Source: Oscillospiraceae bacterium (GTDB lineage Bacteria > Bacillota > Clostridia > Oscillospirales > Ruminococcaceae). From it: DNA of 54,515 nucleotides. The notes under the pieces were generated by a model. The model worked only from the letters and a program-made list of their open reading frames with translations. It did not search any database and was not told the DNA's origin. A program made the translations under genes and the position numbers. The stretch is from the NCBI GenBank assembly GCA_021200775.1, contig JAJQGB010000003.1:1-54515 (forward strand). Direction: 5' to 3'. Positions 19,743 through 37,330 of the stretch are shown here, in pieces (positions within the stretch are counted from its first letter, which is position 1; every line of letters starts with the position of its first letter).

Positions 19743-19803
19743 TAACACAGACGCTAATTCAAGGGATTAGCAAGTTTTAAAAATTCGGCGAGGAGGCCTT
19801 TTG

Positions 19804-20946
19804 ATGGCAAGCTTATCACTAAAGCATATTTACAAGAAGTATCCCGGCGGGGTTGTTGCAGTTTCCGACTTCTGTCTCGAAGTTAAGGACAAGGAATTCA
19901 TTATCTTTGTAGGACCTTCAGGATGCGGCAAATCCACCACCTTGAGAATGATTGCAGGTCTTGAGGAAATCACAGACGGCGAGCTCTATATCGGCAACAG
20001 ATTGGTTAATGATATCGCTCCTAAGGACAGAGATATCGCAATGGTATTCCAGAACTACGCTCTCTATCCTCATATGACAGTTTTCGAGAACATGGCATTC
20101 GGTCTTAAATTAAGAAAGACCCCGAAGGATCAGATTGCCCGTAAGGTTGAGGAAGCAGCAAGAATCCTCGACATCTCCCACCTCCTCGACAGAAAGCCGA
20201 AGGCTTTGTCCGGCGGTCAGAGACAGCGTGTTGCTCTTGGACGTGCACTCGTTCGTGAGCCTCAGGTATTCCTTCTTGACGAGCCTCTTTCCAACCTCGA
20301 TGCTAAACTCCGTGCTCAGATGAGAACCGAGATTACTCTTCTCCACAAGAGACTCGGAACCACATTTATCTATGTAACCCATGACCAGACCGAGGCTATG
20401 ACAATGGCTGACAGAATCGTCGTTATGAAGGACGGTTTCATTCAGCAGGTCGACACTCCTCAGAACCTCTACAGCTATCCTTGCAACCTCTTCGTAGCAG
20501 GATTCATCGGCTCTCCTCAGATGAACTTCATCGACTCCAAGCTCGTCAAGATTGACGGCAAGTACAACGTAGAGTTCGGTTCTGAAGACACCAAGGAAAC
20601 CAGAGGAAGAAAGTTCTATATCGAGCTCCCTGAAGCAAAGGTCAACGAAGAAGTTTTGGCTCCTTACCTCAATAAGGAAATCATCTGCGGCGTTCGTCCC
20701 GAGTGCATCCATGACGAAGAGATGTTCATTTCCTCCGCCAAGACCGGTATCATCGAAGCTACCGTAAGTGTTGCTGAAATGATGGGTGCTGAGACTTATC
20801 TCTACCTCACCTGCGAGGGCATCAACCTCACAGCTCGTGTTTCCAACCGTTCGACTGCAAGACCTCAGGATGTTATCACCTGCGCTCTTGACGCCAACAG
20901 AATCCACCTCTTCGACAAGGAAACTGAGAAGACAATTATCAACTGA
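19804..20946 (+). CDS. sugar ABC transporter ATP-binding protein (MsmK/MsmX/UgpC-like)
   Basis: The 380-residue ATPase has Walker [12 protein letters not shown]-loop [13 protein letters not shown], signature [15 protein letters not shown] and Walker [18 protein letters not shown]-terminal TOBE-type domain of about 140 residues is present, as in the MalK/MsmX group. No permease or binding protein lies beside it, which fits the known shared multi-sugar ATPases that energise several importers. Codon use is strongly biased (many GCT, CTC, GTT), like groEL here, suggesting high expression. GGAGG seven bases upstream selects the ATG at 19804 over a TTG at 19801. Confidence 0.92.
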
Positions 20947-23117: not shown

Positions 23118-23132
23118 TATGCAATCTGCACA
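23118..23132. promoter_or_regulatory. operator-like palindrome, third copy
   Basis: TATGCA-ATC-TGCACA differs by one base from the TGTGCA-N3-TGCACA palindromes before the two CBM9-like genes at 33665 and 35609. It lies between divergent proC and the beta-helix surface gene. Its centre is 52 nt from the first base of the proC -10 box and 89 nt from that of the surface gene, so the spacing differs from the other two. Confidence 0.4.
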
Positions 23133-23282: not shown

Positions 23283-25199
23283 ATGAAAAAATTATTACGT
23301 CTTGTGAGTGCTTTGCTTGTCATTGCACTGACATGCACCACGCTCGCAGTAACCAGCTTTGCGGATGGCAACGTCGCCGCAGTCACCATCGACGGTGTCA
23401 CCACCGAGTACGCAACACTCAAAGAGGCATTTGCTGTCCTTACAAGTAGCACTACCGCAACTATTGACCTTTTGTGCGACACTTCTTACTCCGGCACTGC
23501 CGCTTTGCAGTTCAACGGCACTGTTACACTTAATCTGAACGGTCATACCGTTACCGGTACATCTACAGGCGCTGTCTTTGGCACCAAGGCTAGTTCAACA
23601 GTCACCATCTGCAATGGTACCATTACCGGCAATAGCAATTCCGGCGTAGTCGCAGTAAACAACAAAAACACTGTTGTCACCCTTGAAAATCTGACTTTGT
23701 CAAACACGAGCACTTCAAGCAGTTCATTGTTTGCATATAGCGCACTTCAGATGGCGCACACCGTGTCTATAACCGTAACTGCGACAAATTGCACCTTCAC
23801 CAGTGCTAGCTCGGCTGGTTCTGCTGTCAGCTATTCTACTTCGTCTAGTTCAAGAAGCGCATCTCAGACTATCACTCTGAATGACTGCACTTTGACTGCA
23901 CCGAAGTATGGAATTTATATCTATGGCGGTCATTCGTCGGGCTATTTCAATATAACTCTGAACGATTGCGAAGTTACTACCACAGGAACTAACTCAACCG
24001 CTTTTTATGTAAAGGGACAGTCGAAATCCTATTATGCAAAGTTTGCACTGACTATCAATGATACCGACATCACCAGCACAAATCTCTTGTCCAATGAGAA
24101 CGCCTACATAAAGGATTCTTCCACCGTCACCGTTTCCGGTAGCAGTAACTTGAATGTCAGCTCGCTGGACGGTAAAGCGGCTCTGGATTACGTAACTTTG
24201 ACTGTTACCGGAGGAAACTCCAGCGTCGATGTTGAAGAGTACGTTGACACTACCTCCGACTCGAATCTTCAGTATGTTGAGACTGAGGGTGGCGCTTATG
24301 TAGCTGGATACAGCACTACTCTTGAATACAAGGCAGAAGAAGGAGAGGCTGAAGAAGTTGGAACAGTCGAGGGAGTCGAGTCGGTAATTGCACCCGATTC
24401 TGTAGTTACCTTTACTGTAACCTGTCAAATCGGCTACCAGGTTTCCAAAGTAGCTGTTTATGAGATTATTGGCGCCAATGTCGATATGTCCGAGGTCACC
24501 ATCATCGACAATCAGGACGGCACATACAGCTTCACAATGCCTTCGGACCCTGTATACGTGTCTGTAGCCTTCGAAAAGACCGTCTACCAAGCTTCTGAAA
24601 GCGAAGTAGTAGAAGTTGAGAACGGCTCGTACACGGTACAGACCACAGCAACCTATGGTGAAACCGTCACCATTACCACGAATCCCAACAAGCACTACAA
24701 GGTTTCCGAGGTTGTTGTAATTGATGATAATACCAACGAGCCCATCGAGGTCACCTATAATGAACTTAACGGTACCTACAGCTTCGTAATGCCTGCTGGT
24801 ATGGTCAGCATTTCTGTCAGCTACTATCAGTTCTCTGCGGAGGTAAGCGGAATCATCTATGTTGATTCCGAGCACCACGGTATGTTCATAAACGGACATC
24901 TGGCGACCTACCCGCACACAGTCGACGAGAACGGCTACTGCACCGTCTGCAAGGAATACATAGGTCTTGCAACTGAGGAGACTGAAACCCCGGTAGAGGA
25001 GGAGACTTCCACCCTCACCGAGGAGACGGTCAATATCGAAGAGCCCGTCGAGGACACAAACACCGAGTCCGAGCCTGATGAAGAGCCGGAGGAAATCGAA
25101 GTCTCCGAGACAGAGACTAACCCGACCACCGGAGCTGTTCTTATGCTATTGCCGATGGCAATGGCGGTTGCTGGGGTTGTTGCGAGCAAGCGTCGGTAA
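23283..25199 (+). CDS. secreted beta-helix surface protein with NPTTG-type C-terminus
   Basis: The 638-residue protein has a signal peptide (residues 1-27, ending SFADG). Residues about 30-350 are a Thr/Ser/Asn-rich region with repeating short strands (VTLNLNGHTVTG, STVTICNGTITGN, TVVTLENLTLSN) typical of a right-handed parallel beta-helix. Two repeats ending NQDGTYSFTMPSDPVYVSV and LNGTYSFVMPAGMVSISV follow; these resemble bacterial surface repeats. An acidic Pro/Glu/Thr stretch comes next, then NPTTGAVLMLLPMAMAVAG and a basic tail, like a sortase sorting signal of the NPxTG kind. No sortase gene is nearby. The role is probably carbohydrate or surface binding; no catalytic site was recognised. 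Confidence 0.8.
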   Translation: MKKLLRLVSALLVIALTCTTLAVTSFADGNVAAVTIDGVTTEYATLKEAFAVLTSSTTATIDLLCDTSYSGTAALQFNGTVTLNLNGHTVTGTSTGAVFGTKASSTVTICNGTITGNSNSGVVAVNNKNTVVTLENLTLSNTSTSSSSLFAYSALQMAHTVSITVTATNCTFTSASSAGSAVSYSTSSSSRSASQTITLNDCTLTAPKYGIYIYGGHSSGYFNITLNDCEVTTTGTNSTAFYVKGQSKSYYAKFALTINDTDITSTNLLSNENAYIKDSSTVTVSGSSNLNVSSLDGKAALDYVTLTVTGGNSSVDVEEYVDTTSDSNLQYVETEGGAYVAGYSTTLEYKAEEGEAEEVGTVEGVESVIAPDSVVTFTVTCQIGYQVSKVAVYEIIGANVDMSEVTIIDNQDGTYSFTMPSDPVYVSVAFEKTVYQASESEVVEVENGSYTVQTTATYGETVTITTNPNKHYKVSEVVVIDDNTNEPIEVTYNELNGTYSFVMPAGMVSISVSYYQFSAEVSGIIYVDSEHHGMFINGHLATYPHTVDENGYCTVCKEYIGLATEETETPVEEETSTLTEETVNIEEPVEDTNTESEPDEEPEEIEVSETETNPTTGAVLMLLPMAMAVAGVVASKRR

Positions 25200-33555: not shown

Positions 33556-33602
33556 TGTGCAAACTGCACAAAAATATTTTCAATGTTTGTTGGATTTGCT
33601 AA
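33556..33602 (+). promoter_or_regulatory. operator pair before the first CBM9-like gene
   Basis: Site 1 is the perfect palindrome TGTGCA-AAC-TGCACA (33556-33570). Site 2, centred 32 bases downstream at 33595, is degenerate (TGTTGG-ATT-TGCTAA). Site 1 is centred 63 bases before the -10 box TAAAAT (33626-33631), the same distance as in the next gene. No good -35 box is present, which fits activation. Confidence 0.6.
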
Positions 33603-33625
33603 TAGCAATCAAAATGAGCTTGTGG

Positions 33626-33631
33626 TAAAAT
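33626..33631 (+). promoter_or_regulatory. -10 box of the first CBM9-like gene
   Basis: TAAAAT preceded by CTTGTGG, the same position and a similar context (TTTGTGT-TATAAT) as in the promoter of the paralogue. A consensus -35 is missing. Confidence 0.45.
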
Positions 33632-33664
33632 GTATACCATAAAATATCTTGGAGGATTACATTT

Positions 33665-35386
33665 ATGAAAAGATTATTAAGCATCCTGTGCGTAGTATTG
33701 ATTCTCAGCCTTACTATGACAGCATTTCCGTTCGCCGCAACGGCGGATATTGTGAACACATCAATTGAGGGAACAGCCATTGTCGACGGCGTCAAGGATG
33801 ACGCTTACGCTGGTGCGACCGCCCTTGAATTTGTCCAGAAGGGCGTCAATTATGGTGCGAACGTAGTTTTAGATGAGCCGATAGGCTATGCGTATATCAT
33901 CAACGACAGCGAATGGGTTTATGTCTACATTGACGTTATTGACGACAGCATCGACAAGTCAAACGTCAACACCTATGAGCAGGATTCAACCGAAGTATTC
34001 TGGATGGACGACAACGTCAAGTATCAGCTGAGGTGCAACTTTGACAGCGAGACCAGTGTCTCTGGCTCAGGAACCGACTGGGCTGAAAAGGGCGCAGAGG
34101 TCGTCGGAGTCACAACTGACACCGGCTATGCGGTTGAGTACAAATTCCCGATAACCGACGTTCTTAACAACCAGATTGAAATGTGCATACAGATTAACGC
34201 CTGCACTAATGGTACCCGTAACTACACCTGCTACATCCTGGGCAACCAGGACGGCGACAATGCAGTTCGCAGACTCAGCCGTGATGTTACTGACTGGGAC
34301 GTCTGGTGGACTTTGACCCTTGCCGGCGAATTTGAGGACACAAGAGAAGAGACGGTTGAACCGGCTATGGAAATCACCGTAGACAACTATCAGGAAATCC
34401 GGTCTGTTCCGTTCTCGGTTCAGGGCTACATGCAAGATCACATCAACTGGACGTGGAATTCAGCAGGTTCATATACAACCGGAAAGCTTGGTGACACCCT
34501 TTCGATCAGTTGGAATTACGACCAGTTCTCATTTGATGGCTATCTGACAGCCGACAACACCACCGATTGGATAGTCAATCCGACATTTGCAATCTCCGTC
34601 GGAGATGCGCAGTATCTTCAGCTTCCAGACGACGCAGTAGCCGGCACTACAGGCGAAAGCGCAAGATACTCATTCACCTACTCTGACGTCACGATAACCG
34701 CAACCGGCTATGACGATGTAGTCATCTCAGGCGATGTGGTTGATGCAATAAGATTCACAGTCAAGCAGGAGAATGGCTACACCTCCGGCGTTTCAAAGGA
34801 TATTGACCTTCTTTCCGGAATTTTGGAACAGACCGGTCTTACTTTGGAGCAGTTCGCTTCCGACTATCTTCCGAACCTCACGAACATCTCGTTTGACATC
34901 ACCTTCGACGCTTACGAGCTTGTAACACTTGCAGATATAGATGCGTTCTTAGTAGAGCTTGATGCCGAGGACGAGGAAGTGCTCGCTTCATTGCAGGAGT
35001 ACATCGACCGTGTCGACGCCGCAGAGGAGATAATCAACGACGAGACAACCACCCTTGAAGAGAAGGAAGAGGCACTTGACGACGCAAAGAAGGCGGCAAA
35101 CCGTGCTACAAAGGGCGCTGAGGGCTATACAAAGTCGACTGCCGCCGCAGATGAACTTCAAGATAGGGTTGCAACACTCACCGCAACAGTCGAGGCACTT
35201 CAGACAGAGGCAGAACCTGCCGAGGAAGTAGCAGAGGAAGAAGTCACAGCCGATGAGGAAACATCTTCGTCCGACAGCTCGTCTTCGGGCTCCGCAGGCT
35301 TGATTGTCGGGATAGTGATTCTTGTAGTAGTAATCGTTGTAGTGGTTGTCGTGGCAGTAGTCACCGGCAAAAAGAAAAAGGCATAA
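33665..35386 (+). CDS. CBM9-like surface protein, membrane-anchored (tandem copy 1)
   Basis: The 573-residue protein has a signal peptide (cut near AATA-DIV). A CBM9/DOMON-like domain spans about residues 28-215 (AIVDGVKDDAYAGATALEF, TYEQDSTEVFWMDD, VEYKFPITDV, DVWWTLTLAG). A second beta-rich domain (about 225-420) and a helical coiled coil (about 425-520, DEEVLASLQEYIDRVDAAEE) follow. A Ser/Glu linker leads to a C-terminal Val-rich membrane helix with GKKKKA. CBM9 modules bind sugar ends in xylanases, but no enzyme domain is present. So it is a display or receptor-like protein with its N-terminus outside. GGAGG precedes the ATG. A paralogue of the same length follows. Confidence 0.85.
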   Translation: MKRLLSILCVVLILSLTMTAFPFAATADIVNTSIEGTAIVDGVKDDAYAGATALEFVQKGVNYGANVVLDEPIGYAYIINDSEWVYVYIDVIDDSIDKSNVNTYEQDSTEVFWMDDNVKYQLRCNFDSETSVSGSGTDWAEKGAEVVGVTTDTGYAVEYKFPITDVLNNQIEMCIQINACTNGTRNYTCYILGNQDGDNAVRRLSRDVTDWDVWWTLTLAGEFEDTREETVEPAMEITVDNYQEIRSVPFSVQGYMQDHINWTWNSAGSYTTGKLGDTLSISWNYDQFSFDGYLTADNTTDWIVNPTFAISVGDAQYLQLPDDAVAGTTGESARYSFTYSDVTITATGYDDVVISGDVVDAIRFTVKQENGYTSGVSKDIDLLSGILEQTGLTLEQFASDYLPNLTNISFDITFDAYELVTLADIDAFLVELDAEDEEVLASLQEYIDRVDAAEEIINDETTTLEEKEEALDDAKKAANRATKGAEGYTKSTAAADELQDRVATLTATVEALQTEAEPAEEVAEEEVTADEETSSSDSSSSGSAGLIVGIVILVVVIVVVVVVAVVTGKKKKA

Positions 35387-35408
35387 TGGATAGAGTTTGA
35401 TAGATTTT

Positions 35409-35441
35409 GCCGTCTCTCAGAAATGGGAGGCGGCGATTTTT
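35409..35441 (+). terminator. terminator of the first CBM9-like gene
   Basis: GCCGTCTC (35409-35416) pairs with GAGGCGGC (35427-35434, one G-T pair) and is followed by GATTTTTA. Confidence 0.7.
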
Positions 35442-35496
35442 AAAATTTACCGACAACAGTATTTAATCAAAATCAGATATTGCGCTGACTTGCACC

Positions 35497-35543
35497 TGTG
35501 CAACTTGCACAAAAAACAGGTTTTTATTTGTGCAAGTTGTCAA
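35497..35543 (+). promoter_or_regulatory. operator pair before the second CBM9-like gene
   Basis: Site 1 is the perfect palindrome TGTGCA-ACT-TGCACA (35497-35511). Site 2 is TGTGCA-AGT-TGTCAA (35529-35543). Centres are 32 bases apart, about three helical turns. Site 1 is centred 63 bases and site 2 31 bases before the first base of the -10 box, so site 2 abuts the -35 region. Confidence 0.65.
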
Positions 35544-35566
35544 TGGAATATCCCGACGATTTGTGT

Positions 35567-35572
35567 TATAAT
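35567..35572 (+). promoter_or_regulatory. -10 box of the second CBM9-like gene
   Basis: TATAAT is an exact -10 box. The -35 region 17 bases upstream (TGGAAT) is poor, as expected of an activated promoter. Confidence 0.6.
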
Positions 35573-35608: not shown

Positions 35609-37330
35609 ATGAAGAGGCTAATTGGTATTATCTGCGTAGTCCTGGCTTTGACCATGGCTATGACAGCTATCTCATTCGCCGCTACAGCAGACATCGTAAA
35701 CGAGTCTGTTGAAGGAACCGCCACTGTTGACGGTACAAAGGACGAGGCTTATGACGCCGCTACTGCTCTTGAATTTGTACAGAAGGGCTCCAGCAACGGC
35801 GGAAGCGAAGTTCTCAGCGAACCGATAGGACGCGCATACATCATTAACGACACTGAGTGGGTATACGTCTGGTTTGAGGTCTATGACGACTCTCTCGATC
35901 AGGGCTCAGCTAACACTTACGAGCAGGACTCTGTTGAGTTCTTCTGGATGGACAACAACTCCAAGTATCAGCTCCGTGTCCGTTACGACGGCTCTATCAG
36001 TGCTGATACCGGCTCCGACTGGGCTGACAAGGGTGCTGAGTTCGTAGCAGTTGAGACCGACAACGGTTTCGCTGTAGAAGCTAAGTTCCCGATTACCGAC
36101 GTCAAGTCGAACCAGATTGAAATGACCTTGCAGATTAACGCCTGCACCGACGGTGCTCGTGATTACACCTGCTACATCCTCGGCAATGACGACGCTGATA
36201 ACGCTTATCAGAGAACCAGCCGTGACACCGATTACGATGTTTGGTGGACTCTCACCCTCGCTGGCGAATTCGAAGACACCAGAGTTGAGACTGCTGATCT
36301 CCCGATGGAGCTCACTGCTGAGAACTACACCACCGTTCAGGGCTTGAAGATTGGCGCACAGGCTTATGGTCAGGAAAACGTAACCTGGTCTAACTGGACC
36401 TCTGTTGGTTCCTACACATCTGTTGGCTACGGTGATTCTGTAGACATCAGCTGGGATTATGATGCTTACACCTTCGATGGACTCTTCACCGAAGAGAACA
36501 CCAGCGGATGGACTGTAAACCCTGCACTCGCAATCCAGATTCAGGACGACGGATATCTCCAGCTTCCTGACGATGCACAGACCGGCGACACCGGTGACAG
36601 TGCTAGATTCACATTCACCTATTCCGACATCACCATCACCGCTGAAGGCTATGATGATATCGTTATCCCTGGCGACACTGTAACTACCAGATGGACCATC
36701 AAGGAAGAGGGCGGCTGGACTTCCGGTACCTCCAAGGCTATCGACATCCTCGCTCCTATCATGTCCTCGACCGGTCTTGACCTTCAGGGCGTAGTTGAAC
36801 AGTATCTTCCTGCTATGACCAACGTTTCCTTCAGTCTTAGCTTCGACGCTTTCGAGCTCGTATATCCTGAGGATATCGACGCATTCTTAGTTGAACTCGA
36901 TGCTGAGGACGAAGAAGTACTCGCTTCCTTGCAGGAATACATAGACAGAGTTGACGCCGCTGAAGAAATCATCAACAATTCCGAGTCCACCGTTGAAGAG
37001 ATGGAAGAGGCTCTTGACGATGCCAAGAAGGCTGCTAACCGTTCAACCAAGGCTGCTGAGGGTTATCCGAAGGCAGAAGCTGCTGCTCAGGAACTTCAGG
37101 ACAGAGTAACCGAACTCACCGCTACAGTTGAAGCCGCTCAGGCAGCTGCTGCTCCCGCTGAGGAAGAGGTTGTTGAGGATACAGACAGCACCGCTGACTC
37201 CAGCTCCAGCTCATCTTCGAGCTCCAGCTCAAGCTCCACCGGCGTTATCGTTGGAATCATCATCGTTATCGTAGTAATCGTTGTCGTTGTCGTCGTAGTA
37301 GTCGTCACCGGCAAGAAAAAGAAGAAGTAA
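35609..37330 (+). CDS. CBM9-like surface protein, membrane-anchored (tandem copy 2)
   Basis: The 573-residue protein has the same length and architecture as the upstream gene: signal peptide, CBM9/DOMON-like domain (TATVDGTKDEAYDAATALEF, TYEQDSVEFFWMDNN, DVWWTLTLAGEF), second beta domain, coiled coil, a run of 13 Ser, then a membrane helix of mostly Val and Ile and GKKKKK. The coiled-coil segment is nearly identical between copies, while the beta domains differ more. Codon use here is much more biased (GCT, CTC, GTT) than in copy 1, so this copy is probably made in large amounts. GGAGG ten bases upstream of 35609 sets the start. Confidence 0.86.
   Translation: MKRLIGIICVVLALTMAMTAISFAATADIVNESVEGTATVDGTKDEAYDAATALEFVQKGSSNGGSEVLSEPIGRAYIINDTEWVYVWFEVYDDSLDQGSANTYEQDSVEFFWMDNNSKYQLRVRYDGSISADTGSDWADKGAEFVAVETDNGFAVEAKFPITDVKSNQIEMTLQINACTDGARDYTCYILGNDDADNAYQRTSRDTDYDVWWTLTLAGEFEDTRVETADLPMELTAENYTTVQGLKIGAQAYGQENVTWSNWTSVGSYTSVGYGDSVDISWDYDAYTFDGLFTEENTSGWTVNPALAIQIQDDGYLQLPDDAQTGDTGDSARFTFTYSDITITAEGYDDIVIPGDTVTTRWTIKEEGGWTSGTSKAIDILAPIMSSTGLDLQGVVEQYLPAMTNVSFSLSFDAFELVYPEDIDAFLVELDAEDEEVLASLQEYIDRVDAAEEIINNSESTVEEMEEALDDAKKAANRSTKAAEGYPKAEAAAQELQDRVTELTATVEAAQAAAAPAEEEVVEDTDSTADSSSSSSSSSSSSSTGVIVGIIIVIVVIVVVVVVVVVTGKKKKK

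Follow-up and report, generated by a model that had tools for sequence, protein, structure and literature searches.

Two genes for surface proteins with a CBM9 domain lie in tandem in a 54,515-nt stretch of an Oscillospiraceae genome (assembly GCA_021200775.1, contig JAJQGB010000003.1, positions 1 to 54,515; here called the window), and each is preceded by a perfect palindrome, TGTGCA-N3-TGCACA. The question raised by this locus is whether the palindrome is a regulatory element and, if so, which genes it serves and what kind of protein binds it. A sequence-only reading of the window had assigned the two palindromes, a −10 box 63 nt from each center, and a second site 32 nt downstream of the first to one activator bound at two phased sites. 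Both palindromes were found where they had been reported, with centers at 33563 and 35504, and the distance of 63 nt to the first base of the −10 box was exact for TAAAAT as for TATAAT (Table 1). The second site was likewise confirmed, exactly in the second promoter, where site 1, gap, and site 2 span 15 + 17 + 15 = 47 bp, and as a degenerate copy at the matching position in the first, where 7 of 12 arm positions match (hand count). Both −10 boxes are of the extended type, with an upstream TG. The −35 box that site 2 abuts had been described as missing; the abutment stands, and the box is degenerate rather than absent, with TAGCAA in the first promoter (33603 to 33608, 17-bp spacer) and TGGAAT in the second each matching TTGACA at three of six positions.

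The motif proved to be enriched well beyond the two promoters. The window holds three matches with at most one mismatch versus 0.03 expected (100 shuffles, none reaching 3), and the genome (2.06 Mb) contains 11 exact copies and 24 copies with at most one mismatch, versus 1 for the reversed control. Eleven of 31 same-genus genomes hold 5 to 13 exact copies each, with no reversed-control match in any of the 11, and the remaining 20 hold 0 to 3. The clade, defined by a CBM9 protein identity of ≥79%, comprises G000, G001, G002, G006, G009, G014, G020, G025, G026, G029, and G030. Among the 99 genomes scanned, the reversed control matched five (G024, G050, G072, G086, and G096, with 8 matches in G050) and none of the clade. 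A logo of the sites reads T-TGTGCA-NNN-TGCACA-AA, with ≤0.15 bit in the spacer.

Conservation was assessed in 11 orthologous CBM9 promoters, aligned without gaps and scored with a pattern that asked for both arms, a gap of fixed length, and site 2; every clade orthologue matched it, and none was dropped. Invariant positions numbered 0/60 in the 60 nt upstream, 6/6 in the left arm, 0/3 in N3, 6/6 in the right arm, 13/17 in the gap, 15/15 in site 2, 7/16 in the stretch of the −35 box and spacer, and 12/12 around the −10 box. Site 1 of the first-promoter paralogue was exact in all four clade genomes in which the paralogue was found, and its site-2 position reads, for example, TGTGAA-AAC-TGTCAA (G001), TGTGAG-AAA-TGCCAA (G020), or TGGCTG-GAT-TGCCCA (G029). 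The element is almost surely regulatory: chance, a hairpin, or a duplication relic was ruled out by the genome-wide enrichment with a clean clade control and by arms kept around a free N3 in 11 orthologues. In 19 orthologues from more distant members of the genus, the 190 nt compared do not contain the exact palindrome, but many of them have related blocks (ATGTGCAAA, TTTGT, and TTGAAA at −35) in similar places, by eye. The expectation that the palindromes would be conserved in orthologous promoters was thus borne out within the close clade, where 11 of 11 keep both sites; since the exact palindrome is gone from the 19 distant orthologues, the CBM9 operator as such is clade specific.

The two-site arrangement recurred at unrelated promoters. 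All retrieved exact sites were read in both directions and merged at 60% identity into 163 promoter-side families, in 10 of which TGTGCA starts 31 to 33 nt after the start of the site. All other offsets from 15 to 99 together gave 13 families, six of them at a second peak at offset 17, and control hexamers averaged 0.05 per offset. Many promoters have no recognizable site 2. Together with the conservation in 11 of 11 orthologues, this spacing supports the idea of a factor bound at two phased sites, for which activation would be the likely consequence given the promoter geometry. The distance from site center to −10 box clusters at 54, 63 to 65, and 73 to 77 nt, with smaller groups near 85 and 90; at the promoters for CBM9 proteins, binding lipoproteins, EF-G-like factor, and L19, the site lies 54 to 74 nt upstream of the −10 box.

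All 96 exact sites of the 11 clade genomes were retrieved and sorted by downstream gene, with five sites that lacked a script assignment placed by hand. Upstream of recurring gene classes lie 89 of the 96, and the other seven are inside a serpin gene (Table 1). In the search of related genomes that had been suggested, sites recurred before CBM9 genes, among other classes, and the suggestion of a gene pair under one activator was too narrow, since the genome has 11 exact sites and the regulon extends to translation genes. Pfam matches back the class names in examples of the binding lipoproteins (L014 and L016), EF-G, FGGY, rpoB, L19, L3 of the S10 operon, and serpin; the murA example matches as an EPSP-synthase-family protein, and a third binding-lipoprotein paralogue (L019) had no Pfam match. 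When one mismatch is allowed, this genome has additional L19, S10, and binding-lipoprotein sites. By a crude check, 12 of the 96 sites fall within an open frame of ≥200 codons, 7 of them in the serpin gene and 5 in frames resembling antisense readings of ABC (ATP-binding cassette) or lipoprotein genes.

Table 1. Features of the window (with coordinates) and gene classes at the 96 exact operator sites of the clade
Feature	Position	Strand	Sites, genomes	Basis or remark
Third site, one mismatch, TATGCA-ATC-TGCACA (TATGCAATCTGCACA)	23118..23132	+		Window motif scan
638-amino-acid protein downstream of third site	23283..25199	+		Open reading frame translation
Site 1, first CBM9 promoter, TGTGCA-AAC-TGCACA	33556..33570	+		Sequence; one-mismatch motif scan of window
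Site 2, first promoter, degenerate TGTTGG-ATT-TGCTAA	33588..33602	+		Sequence
−10 box TAAAAT, TG at 33623-33624	33626..33631	+		Sequence; 63 nt from site-1 center
CBM9-domain surface protein 1, 573 amino acids	33665..35386	+		PF06452, E value 1.7e-12
Site 1, second CBM9 promoter, TGTGCA-ACT-TGCACA	35497..35511	+		Sequence; arms conserved in clade, N3 free
Site 2, second promoter, TGTGCA-AGT-TGTCAA, 17 bp past site 1	35529..35543	+		Sequence; clade conservation
Degenerate −35 box TGGAAT, 17-bp spacer to −10 box	35544..35549	+		Sequence
−10 box TATAAT, TG at 35564-35565	35567..35572	+		Sequence
CBM9-domain surface protein 2, 65% identical to protein 1	35609..37330	+		Profile match; protein comparison
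Binding lipoproteins			16 sites, 11 genomes	
CBM9 surface proteins			15 sites, 11 genomes	
EF-G-like factor			11 sites, 11 genomes	
Secreted proteins beginning MKKILAV			11 sites	One (L074) classed by promoter only
ABC operon			10 sites, 10 genomes	
Secreted proteins, MAKKLLC type			6 sites	
FGGY kinase/murA			6 sites	
L19			4 sites	
Putative rRNA promoter			4 sites	
S10 operon			3 sites	
rpoB			3 sites	
Inside serpin gene			7 sites	

Four genomes (L006:3030-3305, L071, L100, and L124) have site 1 and, 32 nt downstream, a TGTGCA half-site before two successive TTGACA/TATAAT-like promoters, and the contig stops within about 20 nt of the second. These are probably P1 and P2 of an rRNA operon, because a repeated rRNA operon breaks an assembly at such a point; no rRNA was seen at these loci, and the sole Rfam hit, a T-box-like one, lay elsewhere in L006. 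At the ABC operon (L007:2573-2735 in the clade), all 10 clade sites have the palindrome centered 39 to 41 nt ahead of the start codon and downstream of the apparent promoter, a placement that suggests repression there. In the clade, a TTGTGCAAAATTTCGG half-site is located some 62 nt upstream of the palindrome. The same operon is preceded by the lone exact site of four distant genomes of the genus (G019, G023, G024, and G028; loci L299 and L302 to L304), with 28, 27, 194 (L299), and 39 nt from center to start codon, and inverted AAGCAAATA/TATTTGCTT copies occur in L302 to L304. The last gene of the operon that was read (L007:4527-7520) encodes a C-terminal solute-binding domain.

Beyond the genus, the 17-mer TTGTGCA-N3-TGCACAA occurred in 73 of 397 family genomes (37 of 122 genera), and control matches were noticed in only one genome of that table. 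Thirty loci were retrieved from family genomes; two, of another genus, precede S10-operon genes (S10 in L316 and L3 in L314), and many others precede genes without an assignable grouping. One site of G046 lies before rpoB and another before a GH9 cellulase gene, and the EF-G promoter of G049 is flanked by two sites. Both were kept as motif genomes (at most one mismatch, 11 versus 0 control matches in G046 and 15 versus 1 in G049), and G070 was dropped, its one-mismatch count of 7 being barely above the control count of 4. The factor and its specificity seem to be older than the clade, because the four distant genomes and other genera carry sites at shared targets, and the regulon seems to have expanded within the clade.

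The reading favored here, with a probability of about 0.48, is that TTGTGCA-N3-TGCACAA is the operator of one global factor that acts as a tetramer on two sites and that this factor is the single-copy RpiR/MurR-family regulator, the identity of the protein being the least certain part. An RpiR protein was named as the candidate because the operator layout matches published sites of RccR, MurR, and NanR. RccR, an RpiR-family protein of Pseudomonas, binds the 15-bp site TGTAGT-N3-ACTACA; it is autoregulated and has a 28-bp type of site as well (PMC5489143). A preprint proposes that the Escherichia coli MurR tetramer bridges two sites separated by 17 bp, with a total span of 47 bp, and that Streptococcus pneumoniae NanR activates via a palindrome and a degenerate half-site beside an alpha-CTD (C-terminal domain) site (PMC12713135). 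The operator thus shares with RccR the 6-3-6 layout and the TGT/ACA ends (PMC5489143), and, at the second CBM9 promoter, with MurR the gap and span; as at NanR, the palindrome has a degenerate half-site on its downstream side, close to the polymerase (PMC12713135). The differences are that the inner half-site bases are GCA here versus AGT in RccR, that MurR is a repressor, that MurR and NanR control local operons, and that the NanR half-site is 23 bp downstream of an 18-bp near-palindrome. The Pseudomonas HexR site is described as TTGT-N7-8-ACAA, with a different spacing, and the described targets of the carbon regulators RccR and HexR are carbon-metabolism genes, not ribosomal genes as here. 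In Lactococcus, GlaR is an activator of the RpiR family (PMC6528599), and HexR regulons have a small core and a lineage-specific periphery (PMC5343134).

Regulators were sought in the 31 genus genomes with six profiles (PF00196, PF13545, PF01037, PF00126, PF01418, and PF02954). The candidate, a 292-residue protein encoded on contig C15 near 25300 in this genome (L231:1784-2659), has an N-terminal HTH_6 (helix-turn-helix [HTH]) domain (PF01418, 62.0 bits) and a C-terminal SIS domain (PF01380, 85.1 bits), both over the cutoff; it matches RpiR proteins in the PDB (best, 8.2e-24), and the RccR structure 8k3b aligns to its HTH. Exactly one such gene is present in each of the 31 genomes, and in L231 it lies outside any sugar operon, beside genes for a metallo-beta-lactamase-fold protein and an HI0933-like oxidoreductase. 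The recognition-helix stretch SESTVVR is identical in 20 of 20 aligned RpiR proteins (11 from the clade and 9 others), in line with the unchanged ABC-operon arms of the four distant genomes, of which only G024 is in both sets.

Under this reading, the factor would bind site 1 tightly as a dimer. At CBM9-type promoters, which have a poor −35 box, the second dimer of the tetramer would occupy the weak site 2 beside the −35 box and recruit RNA polymerase, and at EF-G-like and L19 promoters site 1 alone would act from upstream. A site downstream of the start would cause repression, at the ABC operon by a roadblock or by a loop with the upstream half-site. A phosphorylated sugar may serve as the signal, coupling surface and uptake genes to the synthesis of ribosomes and RNA polymerase.

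Several points weigh against this reading. No site within two mismatches was present in the 3.5- to 4-kb RpiR locus in 11 of 11 clade genomes, whereas RccR is autoregulated, and genomes that lack exact sites (G008, G010, G017, G021, and G027) carry the RpiR gene as well, so that its presence does not discriminate. No RpiR protein acting on ribosomal promoters was found in the literature searched. The 163 families, merged at 60% identity, are not fully independent, and helical phasing of the −10 distances is weak (R = 0.29; 371 of 20,000 random draws were as good). The seven serpin-gene copies are regarded as an inherited coincidence. The link between protein and operator is one that we infer, activation is read from geometry alone, and, because the regulator search covered six profiles, a factor from another family (TetR, GntR, LacI, MarR, AraC, XRE, MerR, Fur, or others) is possible.

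That a regulator from one of these eight families, or with a fold that has no known model, uses the same operator and two-site logic is quite possible, if on the unlikely side. The profile searches covered six families only, and an odd-centered 15-bp dyad is compatible with several families; a TGTxxx-N3-xxxACA dyad and a 47-bp two-site span have nevertheless both been published for RpiR members. We know of none of the eight families with this combination.

It is improbable that the sites are mainly repressor operators rather than activator sites. The ABC-operon palindromes downstream of the apparent promoter are what such a role would look like, and E. coli MurR is described as a repressor (PMC12713135) and RccR as chiefly one (PMC5489143). 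The sites at CBM9, binding-lipoprotein, EF-G, and L19 promoters, however, are too far upstream of the −10 box to block polymerase, and the −35 boxes of the CBM9 promoters are poor.

Slightly less probable again is a single Lrp/AsnC (feast/famine) protein that wraps DNA over sites three helical turns apart. Exactly one such protein was found per genome (31 of 31), and 15-bp dyads and spacings of about 31 nt are habits of Lrp. Its recognition helix nevertheless differs, being of the RTEEEVAHDISELE type in the clade versus, for example, TDEKDVREQIKSLE in G019 (22 proteins compared), though the ABC-operon arms of G019 are unchanged, and no site within two mismatches lies near the gene in 11 of 11 clade loci.

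A CRP/FNR-family protein beside an NMT1-type ABC transporter, of which each clade genome has one with a strong PF13545 match and whose relatives activate from phased sites, is very unlikely to be the factor: CRP/FNR sites are even centered, of the TGTGA-N6-TCACA type, and the motif found here is odd centered (even-centered variants were outside the search), the promoter of the gene's own operon has no such dyad in the 9 loci (of 11) that were aligned, 10 of 11 loci have no site within two mismatches (the one in L154 is about 2 kb from the gene), and the recognition helix changes between clade and outgroup. L154 and its orthologues also have a very conserved stretch just past the −10 box.

LysR was rejected: the only LysR gene of the genome (L208; orthologues L209 to L218) is the first gene of a metQ-metN operon, which encodes an NlpA lipoprotein and a NIL-domain ATPase and has its own conserved TATAG-N7-CTATA box (7 of 8 loci). 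The LysR gene carries a frameshift in G009, a genome with 6 operator sites, and a truncation in G025, which has 5. A strong upstream dyad with a weaker site abutting the −35 box is a feature of LysR-type activators. LuxR-type HTH proteins (PF00196), considered for a likeness of the operator to the TraR box, had matches in genus genomes. The Fis-type HTH (PF02954) matched 0 of 11 clade genomes and 2 of 31 genus genomes and was discarded. The published consensuses of IclR (GKTYC... and TGRAACA...) and GntR (NyGTNxACNy) do not fit the operator.

Other features were noted in the window and at operator loci. The third site of the window, overlooked by the sequence-only reading, has a TTGCAA-17-TATTAT promoter downstream, with the −10 box 89 nt from the center. 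Like both CBM9 proteins, the 638-amino-acid protein that follows shows, on visual inspection, a signal peptide and a membrane segment at the C terminus, and its weak Flg_new_2 match is below the cutoff. No Rfam family scored above threshold in the window, which also holds a MalK/UgpC-type ABC ATPase gene (19801 to 20946); the binding-lipoprotein genes examined in this genome (L014 and L016) have no adjoining permease gene, by eye. At L016:7928-8138, a copy with one mismatch precedes an S10-Clostridia ribosomal leader (RF03136) by about 115 nt. Most EF-G promoters (L011:885-1000 and 10 orthologues) carry a third, inverted box of the TTGCACA or TTGCAnA type just upstream of the palindrome. The geometry of the CBM9 promoters recurs at a HigBA-like pair (Gp49-family and HTH_3 proteins; L010:2355-3119, G000 C6), where two sites separated by 32 nt lie 32 and 64 nt from a TATACT −10 box; a divergent secreted-protein gene shares these sites. 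The HigA-like antitoxin beside this target was among the regulators considered. The serpin-like (protease inhibitor) gene at L008:3249-4517 and six clade orthologues contain the exact operator copy within the coding region. At one gene class in ten clade genomes (L009, L069, L083, L086, L094, L110, L112, L121, L125, and L130), a constant operator (−10 box at 75) is combined with a near-identical signal peptide (MKKILAVATALVLAISSLCVF type), after which the residues (first ~80 viewed) differ widely between most genomes; in this class the promoter is constant and the secreted protein variable.

The operator motif was not found as a string in 5.39 million open-access papers (text search, one consensus in four spellings), nor was it seen among the papers listed by broader searches. 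To our knowledge, no sequence-specific activator common to ribosomal, RNA-polymerase, and nutrient-capture genes is known in Gram-positive bacteria, and none was found in the literature searched. The widest form of the proposal, which must be considered doubtful, is that a sugar-phosphate-sensing activator of the RpiR family serves as master regulator of growth in part of this family of Clostridia: a tetramer on a 47-bp element would drive the genes for rRNA, S10, L19, the EF-G-like factor, and RNA polymerase as well as those for sugar- and polysaccharide-binding surface proteins, and carbohydrate supply would set ribosome synthesis by way of a DNA-binding activator. The 96 sites are a ready promoter set for testing it. 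Even without the regulator, the fact that orphan binding lipoproteins and variable secreted proteins share the element with growth genes gives a hint of what these proteins are used for. If the proposal is true, carbohydrate status would be linked directly to ribosome synthesis in bacteria of the Ruminococcus group, which are probably gut dwellers.

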